Below are positions 13,904 through 16,540 of a DNA stretch of 64,000 nucleotides, piece after piece. The stretch's first letter is position 1, and every line of letters begins with the position of its first letter. The DNA lies in assembly GCA_022071945.1 (NCBI GenBank), contig JAJVIN010000028.1, positions 186,001 to 250,000 of the forward strand, read 5' to 3'. The notes beneath the pieces are model-generated. The model saw nothing but the letters and a program-made list of their open reading frames with translations, did not search any database and had not been told where the DNA came from. The DNA is from Thermoanaerobaculia bacterium (GTDB lineage: Bacteria; Acidobacteriota; Thermoanaerobaculia; UBA5066). The translations under genes were made by a program, and so were the position numbers.

Positions 13904-14800
13904 TCAGTAGATCGCCGGAGTGACGCCATCGATCCGGTCGAGGGCGCGAACCCGGACCTGCTCCTGCGAAGAGAAGGTGCGGGAGAGGACCTCCTGGATC
14001 GCCTCCGCCTTGCCCTCGCCCGAAAGGCCCGGAGTCGCCTCGATCTCCTTGCGGGCGGCCCGATAGCTGGCGAGACGGCCCTTGAACTCGGCTTCCTCGC
14101 GGTCGAGAGCCTCCAGGCGGCGCGCCGCCTCGGACCCGACGAGCTCGACGCGGGCTGAACGGACCTCGGCTTCCGAGGCTCCCCTCTTGCGAAGCTCCGA
14201 CTCCTTCTCTGCGAGGACGACCGGGAGGAGGGCCTCGTCGGCACGACGCGCGGCGGCCACCTCGGGGTCGCCGGGGTTCCGGCGGGATTCGAGGAAGCGG
14301 CGAGCGGCCCGCTCTTCCTCCCCGAACAGCTGATCGGCGACGTGACGGCCGAACACCTTCCGGCGGAGATCGGAGAGCCTCTCGAATCCGGTCTCGAGCT
14401 CGGCGGTTTCTCTCTGGGCATTCATCTCGCGCGCCTGGTCTCGGTAGGAGAGGTACTGGGCGAGAAGAGCCTGGGCGTCCAGGCGAGCCTGCCCCGCCAG
14501 GCGAGAGTTGATGTCCGCCGTGATCCTGGACCTGACGCGAGAAAGCCCGTCCTCACCCTGCGCCGTGAGGTAGTAGTCAAAGAGCTGGAGCGCGCCCGGC
14601 GTGGGCACGAAGCGCCCCTGCGCATCCGTGGCGAGTTCCCCATCCGGCTCGGTCCCCTGAAGAGACGCGGGGAGTTCCTTCCCGGCGGCCCGCCCCTCGC
14701 GGTCGAGCCCGCGACGCTCACGTTCGGGACCATCGGCCAGAAGCGGGGAGACGGCCAGGGTGGACAGCAAGGCGAGGGCGGTCAGATTCAGTGTCTTCAT
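13904..14800 (-). CDS. lifO: Lipase-specific foldase (lipase chaperone, Lif/LifO)
   Basis: A 298-residue steric chaperone for the adjacent lipase. It has an N-terminal hydrophobic segment (residues 5-22) that exports or anchors it in the periplasm, the family's SLQGTEPDG motif at 46-54, and the signature block LQLFDYYLTAQGE at 71-83 (consensus RxxFDYxLSAxGE, with the first Arg replaced by Leu). The remainder is long, charged and helical, as expected of Lif, which wraps around the lipase. It starts 13 bases after the lipase stop with an AAGGAGAGG ribosome site, the same lipase-then-foldase order as in Pseudomonas and Burkholderia. It is probably required to fold the lipase before type II secretion. 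Confidence 0.9.
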   Translation of the reverse strand: MKTLNLTALALLSTLAVSPLLADGPERERRGLDREGRAAGKELPASLQGTEPDGELATDAQGRFVPTPGALQLFDYYLTAQGEDGLSRVRSRITADINSRLAGQARLDAQALLAQYLSYRDQAREMNAQRETAELETGFERLSDLRRKVFGRHVADQLFGEEERAARRFLESRRNPGDPEVAAARRADEALLPVVLAEKESELRKRGASEAEVRSARVELVGSEAARRLEALDREEAEFKGRLASYRAARKEIEATPGLSGEGKAEAIQEVLSRTFSSQEQVRVRALDRIDGVTPAIY

Positions 14801-14813
14801 GGTCCTCTCCTTC

Positions 14814-15773
<960 letters not shown>

Positions 15774-15781
15774 TCACACCC

Positions 15782-15799
15782 TGACTGAGCCATCATTCA
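15782..15799. promoter_or_regulatory. FadR/TetR-like operator, proximal copy
   Basis: The 18-bp palindrome TGACTGA-GCCA-TCATTCA. It has the same layout and right half as the copy at 15862. The form TGAnTGA-N4-TCAnTCA resembles operators of TetR-family FadR regulators of fatty-acid degradation. It overlaps TTGACT, a possible -35 for lipA on the minus strand. The regulator is not in this window. Confidence 0.5.
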
Positions 15800-15861
15800 G
15801 TCAAGTTCCATGCCAGCGCGCGGAAAATCTCAAGTCACTGATCGCGCAGCAGATACCAGAC

Positions 15862-15879
15862 TGAGTGACCACTCATTCA
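15862..15879. promoter_or_regulatory. FadR/TetR-like operator, distal copy
   Basis: The 18-bp palindrome TGAGTGA-CCAC-TCATTCA. It shares 13 of the 14 half-site bases with the proximal copy, and the start-to-start distance is 80 bp. Two such sites could allow cooperative or looping repression of lipA. Confidence 0.5.
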
Positions 15880-15956
15880 TGAACGGGACGGGTCAGAAAC
15901 TGAGCAGGGAGGCGGGTCAGCGGGCGGAAGTTGACCCGTGTGGCAGGCAGGACGGT

Positions 15957-16047
15957 GCGTCAGCCACCGCTGACGGCGTCAGCCACTGCTGATGCGCCAG
16001 CCACTGCTGATGCGCCAGCTGCCGCTGGCGCGCCAGCTATCGCTGGT
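15957..16047. repeat. Five tandem 18-19-bp units, each a small hairpin
   Basis: Units begin at 15957, 15976, 15994, 16012 and 16030. Each has the form GCGyCAGCnnnyGCTGr and folds on itself. Pairing bases change together between units (TCAGC/GCTGA in the first two, CCAGC/GCTGG in the last two), while the loop varies freely. The array lies between the stop of the RsbR-like gene and the lipase operators. No protein product is supported. Confidence 0.75.
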
Positions 16048-16057
16048 GCGCCCGGCC

Positions 16058-16540
16058 TCAGAAGCCCGAGGTCCCCTGGAAGAGCGCCTCGAGGTTCAGG
16101 GACCGCATCTTGATCTGGCTGGCGAGCGCGACCCAGGTCCTCGCGGTGACGTCCTTGGCGACGCCCAGGACCGTGGCGACGAGCCCGAGTGCTTCCGGAA
16201 GCTCGGCAGGAGGAACGCTCGTCAGGACGTTTTTCCAGATCGCCTCCTCGAGCACGTTGATGGCCGTCTGCACCTCGGAGAATTCGAATCCCGCCGCGAA
16301 ACGCGCCTCCGACATCGAGTGCGCGTAGCGCGTGATCTCGTCCAGGTGCCTCTTCTCGATTGCGGTGATCGTCAATTCGAGGAGCTTCGCCAGCCGCTCG
16401 CGGACGACCTCTTCCCCGTCCCTCTCGTATCCCGAAAGGCCGGAACGCGAGATGGAAGCCGTCGCGTGCTCCACGATCTCCCGGGACTTTTCCCGGAGGA
16501 GATGCGAGACCGCGTCCTTGTGAGTCTGGAATTCCGTCAT
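16058..16540 (-). CDS. RsbRD N-terminal-like (RsbT co-antagonist type) sensor protein
   Basis: A 160-residue, all-helical soluble protein resembling the N-terminal non-haem globin sensor domain of RsbR/RsbRD co-antagonists, here without the STAS domain that normally follows. Readable signs are an N-terminal helix ending in RSGLSGYERDGEEVVRERLAKLLE, a middle ITRYAHSMSEARFAAGFEFSEVQ segment (typical 'R...G....Ev' spacing) and AINVLEEAIWKN. Its ATG overlaps the stop of the biotin carrier gene (ATGA), so it is translated together with the carboxylase subunits. This suggests that it senses a ligand or state linked to acyl-CoA carboxylation, which is inference. Assignment rests on recalled family patterns. 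Confidence 0.65.
   Translation of the reverse strand: MTEFQTHKDAVSHLLREKSREIVEHATASISRSGLSGYERDGEEVVRERLAKLLELTITAIEKRHLDEITRYAHSMSEARFAAGFEFSEVQTAINVLEEAIWKNVLTSVPPAELPEALGLVATVLGVAKDVTARTWVALASQIKMRSLNLEALFQGTSGF

Follow-up and report, generated by a model that had tools for sequence, protein, structure and literature searches.

The lipase locus

The window, that is the whole stretch of DNA that was analysed (64,000 nucleotides), carries on its minus strand the gene of a secreted lipase of the LipA type, followed by the gene of its foldase (Table 1). The lipase matches the P. aeruginosa lipase 1ex9 (1e-110) and, with a PF03280 chaperone gene next to it, forms a lipase-with-foldase pair (13904-15770). 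It is most closely related to myxobacterial and proteobacterial lipases, including a Myxococcaceae protein with 67% identity. No close copy of the lipase was found in the 59 nearest relatives searched (best match 6.8e-10); PF03280 is named as a proteobacterial family. The stretch at 15954-16049, immediately downstream of the 16058-16540 gene, is a series of hairpin repeats set back to back (such as CAGCCACTGCTGATGCGC and CAGCTGCCGCTGGCGC), with four long imperfect inverted repeats.

Table 1. Positions of the genes and sequence elements considered in this work (window coordinates unless a contig or locus is given)
Feature	Position	Strand	Remarks
Lipase foldase (chaperone)	13904..14800	-	PF03280, 3.8e-29; next gene of the presumed operon
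Secreted LipA-type triacylglycerol lipase	14814..15752 (open frame to 15770)	-	PF00561; likely ATG 15752
Putative operator O1, TGACTGAGCCATCATTCA	15782..15799	.	Exact motif match; ends ~30 bp before the lipase ATG; adjoins the sigma-54-like -12 box
Sigma-54-like -24/-12 element, TGGCATGGAACTTGA	15801..15815	-	GGCAY-N5-TYG; adjoins O1
Putative operator O2, TGAGTGACCACTCATTCA	15862..15879	.	Exact motif match; ~110 bp before the lipase ATG
GGGTCA-N12-TGACCC inverted repeat	15914..15937	.	Possible upstream activator site, tentative
160-aa protein	16058-16540	-	Sub-threshold RsbRD_N; between biotin-carboxylase-type genes and the lipase
TetR-family FadR gene (fadR)	G000:C1:218545-219261 (= L017:7543-8262)	-	TetR domains, FadR model, operator; protein opens MAHSSSG
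Fourth exact site	L018:8963-8980		20 bp upstream of the hydrolase ATG (9001)

An earlier note on this DNA had described O1 and O2 as near-identical palindromes. Both 18-mers are present, 80 bp apart from start to start, and both match the motif TGANTGANNNNTCANTCA exactly, with the left halves TGACTGA (O1) and TGAGTGA (O2) and the right half TCATTCA in common; as palindromes, however, they are imperfect, with 6/9 dyad positions matching in each. Further half-sites surround them: TGACTGA-N8-TCAGTCA spans 15782-15803, with the extra half-site TCAGTCA (15797-15803) flanking O1, and an overlapping inverted repeat, GACTGAGTG/CACTCATTC, lies at O2 (15859-15878).

Allowing one mismatch, the window contains two matches to TGANTGANNNNTCANTCA, both exact, against a mean of 0.05 in dinucleotide shuffles of the window, none of which (0/100) reached two. 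The genome-wide scan proposed in the earlier note, carried out at the same threshold on 6.17 Mb (69 contigs, 96% complete), returned four sites, again all exact, against none for the reversed-pattern control. Two of them are those of the window lipase, one is at a FadR-type TetR gene with its beta-oxidation cluster, and one is at a second secreted hydrolase. At up to two mismatches, the genome has 44 sites compared with 10 for the control; of nine weaker sites inspected by eye, seven lie inside genes and none at an obvious fatty-acid gene. The shortness of the motif (12 fixed bases) and the mostly noise-like character of these two-mismatch matches would favor the view that O1 and O2 are palindromes arisen by chance, in intergenic DNA that is richer in AT. 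Against it stand the excess over the shuffles in the window and the four sites to none in the genome, all at relevant genes, and we find this explanation hardly credible.

A FadR-type regulator in the same genome

The TetR-family regulator that the earlier note had anticipated near fatty-acid genes exists and is of the FadR type: behind fadR, on the same strand, lie genes for a thiolase, a FadJ-like multifunctional protein, and an acyl-CoA dehydrogenase. The protein has a TetR_N domain (7.1e-17) and a TetR_C_4/YsiA-like C-terminal domain (PF08359, 8.6e-20), both above the cut-offs. FadR was the best of all NCBIfam models (NF053878, 3.5e-45), with 154 bits against an equivalog cut-off of 200, and the protein is therefore named FadR-type and not NCBI equivalog.

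The best PDB relatives of the regulator are 1vi0, 3whb, 5gp9, and 5gpa (E values from 1.4e-34 to 2.2e-31), all of which we take to be Bacillus FadR; 3whb is titled fatty acid metabolism regulator protein. The recognition-helix region is nearly identical to that of Bacillus FadR (GVAEGTVYLYFHNKEDLL aligns with GVADGTIYLYFKNKEDIL), a likeness to the TetR-family FadR (YsiA) of Bacillus subtilis which adds to that of the TetR_C_4 domain. The alignment to the ligand-bound entries 3whb and 3whc extends through the C-terminal domain, and this match is suggestive for the predicted binding of acyl-CoA.

The fadR operator (L017:8248-8265, TGATGGCTCA) contains the fadR start codon. This placement recurs in the relatives of the FadR family, and thus a very short or absent fadR leader is suggested.

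Co-occurrence of FadR and the motif across relatives

A total of 60 genomes were searched, including our own and 59 relatives. The exact site was found in 36/60, whereas the reversed control gave matches in 0/60. FadR orthologues, defined as the best match at E <= 1e-20 (the next best being ~1e-15), are present in 35/59 relatives. Among these 59 genomes, 34 have both FadR and the site, 23 have neither, one has FadR only (G029), and one has the site only (G006), a highly significant association (Fisher p = 4e-14). In G006, the site is found at the end of a contig, over an ATG opening MAHSALRR, which resembles the FadR start of this genome. By coordinates, the exact site is at most ~100 bp from fadR in 31 of the 35 FadR-bearing relatives; among the exceptions (G037, G028, G029, and G046), a one-mismatch site is found upstream of fadR in G037 and two-mismatch sites in G028 and G029.

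Of the 82 exact sites in the relatives, 80 were taken with their neighborhoods, omitting those of G006 and G011. By clustering, 69/80 sites are flanked by fadR or by beta-oxidation/ETF gene groups: fadR (29), acyl-CoA dehydrogenase (19), FadJ-like (12), thiolase (3), ETF (3), and FeS oxidoreductase (3). Pfam was used to check nine representative proteins, drawn from these groups and from the other TetR genes. Among the other 11 sites, five were assigned: L261 and L268 are, by their coordinates, at FadR, L204 is at a masked acyl-CoA dehydrogenase, and two are at other TetR genes (L250:2949-2966 in G053 and L264:2979-2996 in G050), and thus the motif is not perfectly exclusive to FadR. These last two sites are a variant with two TGACTGA/TCAGTCA half-sites, which may belong to a paralogue of the regulator whose half-site has shifted.

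The class-wide form of the site is TGAATGA-N4-TCATTCA, with A in 71/80 and T in 69/80 at the two free positions. This is also the form of the Bacillus FadR box and, by sequence, it is found at the regulator's own gene and at beta-oxidation genes, relatives included. The flanking genes across relatives recall the Bacillus FadR regulon as well (acyl-CoA dehydrogenase, hydroxyacyl-CoA dehydrogenase, thiolase, ETF, and FeS oxidoreductase). As the motif tracks the FadR gene and adjoins beta-oxidation/ETF genes, the reading of the sites as TetR/FadR operators in the earlier note is supported.

It could be that O1 and O2 are real TetR-type operators and belong to another TetR paralogue, or to a lipid-unrelated regulator sharing the TGANTGA half-site. 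The TGACTGA-half variant at the other TetR genes of G053 and G050 points in this direction, as does O1, in which one half is TGACTGA with TCAGTCA nearby. Nevertheless, both O1 and O2 have the class-common TCATTCA half, a site is common to fadR and the second lipase, and among the 12 TetR_N genes of this genome, only FadR has a TGANTGA dyad upstream of its HTH (450 bp considered). On this basis, we regard control by another regulator as improbable. Several other TetR genes of the genome carry unrelated dyads.

The second secreted hydrolase and the origin of the operators

The second hydrolase is secreted and alpha/beta-hydrolase-like, with THSFGG. It has no Pfam match and only a weak similarity to the esterase BlEst2 (7e-4), for which reason “lipase” is a likely, not a proven, label for it. 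Matches were found in 27/148 genomes of the class, eight of which at >=71% identity (hereafter, close orthologues). A site at <=2 mismatches lies within 260 bp upstream in 5/8 close orthologues: it is exact in G000, occurs as two one-mismatch sites in G006, and has two mismatches in G046, G064, and G065. In the same 260 bp and at the same threshold, no site was found in G005, G003, and G011, nor in the remaining 19 relatives (0/19). The chance expectation per 260 bp is ~0.002, calculated from the <=2-mismatch rate of our own genome (44 in 6.17 Mb).

The two lipase promoters have CTGGCATGGAACT in common. A duplication of one promoter from the other was rejected, the local alignment score being 19, with shuffles reaching up to 23.5.

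The inheritance of the operators together with the window lipase was also rejected: in the 400 bp upstream of 80 more distant lipase relatives, no FadR site was found at <=2 mismatches (the best has three mismatches). Therefore, either the operators were gained with or after the arrival of the lipase in the lineage, or its true donor has not been sampled. As for the LipA lipase and foldase, the sequence comparisons make horizontal transfer probable.

A sigma-54-like element beside the operators

The earlier note had seen a possible -35 (TTGACT) overlapped by one of the operators. A sigma-70 promoter at O1 was rejected, as these bases have no -10 partner and no sigma-70-type match occurs in 15700-16100. 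They fit better into the -12 part of TGGCATGGAACTTGA, a sigma-54-like element with a putative promoter function. The sigma-54 consensus is TGGCACGN4TTGC, with GG at -24, GC at -12, and a fixed spacing. Compared to it, TGGCATGGAACTTGA has two mismatches: GG, the spacing, and TTG are kept, with GA instead of GC at -12. If this element is a promoter, transcription would start near 15790, inside O1.

The pattern GGCAY-N5-TYG is present in the first 7/7 lipase promoters tested (the window lipase and six second-lipase genes), compared to 0.5-1% of shuffles for each. On a wider search, it was found in 8/8 close second-lipase orthologues and in 2/19 of the remaining relatives. Within 60 bp of the other FadR sites, the element occurs in 1/80, against 2.7 expected, and it is thus a property of these lipase promoters and not of FadR sites. 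The loose pattern GGCAYN5TTGM occurs three times in the window where one is expected; since it is not rare by itself, the case for the sigma-54-like element rests on its recurrence among orthologues. Among the 80 relatives of the window lipase, the strict element was not found (0/80), and the loose form is in 3/80 (~3 expected). The genome has one rpoN and 36 matches to PF00158 (sigma-54 activator domain), of which ~30 are strong.

Predicted regulation and comparison with known systems

Taking these results together, O1 and O2 are very probably operators of the genome's own FadR, which would repress the lipases and the beta-oxidation genes until released by acyl-CoA; at the lipase, binding, repression, and release are all predicted from the sequence. 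In the absence of fat, FadR dimers on O1 (over the putative start) and O2 would hold the lipase-foldase operon low, and FadR would also repress its own gene, the downstream thiolase, FadJ-like, and acyl-CoA dehydrogenase genes, and the second secreted hydrolase. In the presence of lipids, basal lipase would free fatty acids that, once taken up, would be converted to acyl-CoA. Acyl-CoA would then release FadR, and lipases and beta-oxidation would rise together in a positive loop through the product. Less surely, initiation may occur from the sigma-54-type promoter, with FadR acting as a veto over an activator. Such a testable circuit would couple extracellular fat digestion to intracellular fatty-acid oxidation in a bacterium outside the usual models.

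To our knowledge, the Bacillus lipases are outside the FadR regulon. Unlike in Bacillus, two secreted lipases are here part of the predicted regulon, and a sigma-54-like element stands beside their operators.

A closer precedent is FadRSa of Sulfolobus acidocaldarius, described in the sections of PMC6449355 considered here as a TetR-type repressor of lipases/esterases and beta-oxidation genes that is released by acyl-CoA. TetR-FadR control of lipases is, given this precedent, not new as a concept. The likeness includes a TetR-type FadR with lipases and beta-oxidation genes as targets, and the acyl-CoA release that we predict. The same sections report four sites in the FadRSa gene cluster and binding of a second dimer; by analogy, the extra half-sites at O1 and O2 could accommodate a second dimer as well (PMC6449355). 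FadRSa differs in being archaeal, in controlling one 30-kb cluster instead of the dispersed loci found here, and in having non-homologous ligand residues and a different ligand entry; those sections do not present its esterases as being of the LipA-foldase type (PMC6449355).

The LipA-type lipase with its foldase recalls the LipA-Lif operons of Pseudomonas (CbrAB, LipQR, sigma-54), where the lipase has a sigma-54 promoter with an NtrC-type activator, according to the portion of a 2025 review of lipase regulation used here (PMC12134079). In the same portion, long-chain fatty acids are reported to repress lipase in several bacteria, including Pseudomonas and Acinetobacter (PMC12134079), whereas induction by the product is predicted here, with the opposite sign. 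The repression reported in those bacteria would be in line with another scenario, in which FadR activates the lipase, or acts mainly elsewhere (e.g., on the 16058-16540 gene), and acyl-CoA lowers lipase expression. The position of O2 upstream of the promoter-like element, possible for an activator, would also agree with it. Conversely, O1 adjoins the -12 box and covers the putative start, which is a blocking position, and the fadR start codon is overlapped by its operator. Furthermore, O1 and O2 lie behind the stop of the 16058-16540 gene, because this gene is upstream on the same minus strand. We judge this scenario quite improbable and retain repression by FadR with release by acyl-CoA.

In Proteobacteria, fatty-acid degradation is under PsrA, FadP (a TetR protein), and GntR-type FadR, as far as the consulted part of PMC5343134 describes. 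PsrA and FadP are like the present regulator in being TetR proteins that control fatty-acid degradation, and are different regulators from the FadR found here (PMC5343134). The word “lipase” is absent from the main text of PMC5343134, and FadR and TetR have 0 occurrences in the lipase-regulation review PMC12134079. No bacterial FadR-lipase regulon was found in our literature search, which was thin on subscription papers.

A possible activator site and a wider set of promoters

Upstream of O2 are the GGGTCA-N12-TGACCC inverted repeat and, on the minus strand, one more TGACCC (15890-15895). GGGTCA/TGACCC repeats occur 11 times genome-wide, compared with 4 for the control, and 2/11 are at the two lipases. 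In lipase-family promoters, copies are found ~120-190 bp upstream of the ATG; they are absent in G046, G064, and G065, and for this reason the activator site is only tentative. A shared activator regulon through these repeats is a lead, not a result.

We tentatively propose, with a confidence somewhat short of even, that the lipase promoters of this lineage need two keys: sigma-54 and an enhancer-binding activator would drive them, and FadR, sitting across the start, would act as an acyl-CoA-controlled veto. The foreign-type LipA-foldase pair would follow the same local plan, unlike its known relatives. The predicted circuit also suggests a way for a host metabolic regulator to gain control of a secreted enzyme of foreign type.

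One of the 11 GGGTCA repeats is at an alpha-amylase-like gene (L315:1501-1704, G000:C7) that is laid out like the lipases, with GGGTCA-N5-TGACCC, then GCGTTAACGC and the sigma-54-like AGGCATCGGCTTTGC. Such a layout may point to a broader sigma-54 regulon of exoenzymes. Only at this gene is the sigma-54-like box also preceded by GCGTWWACGC.
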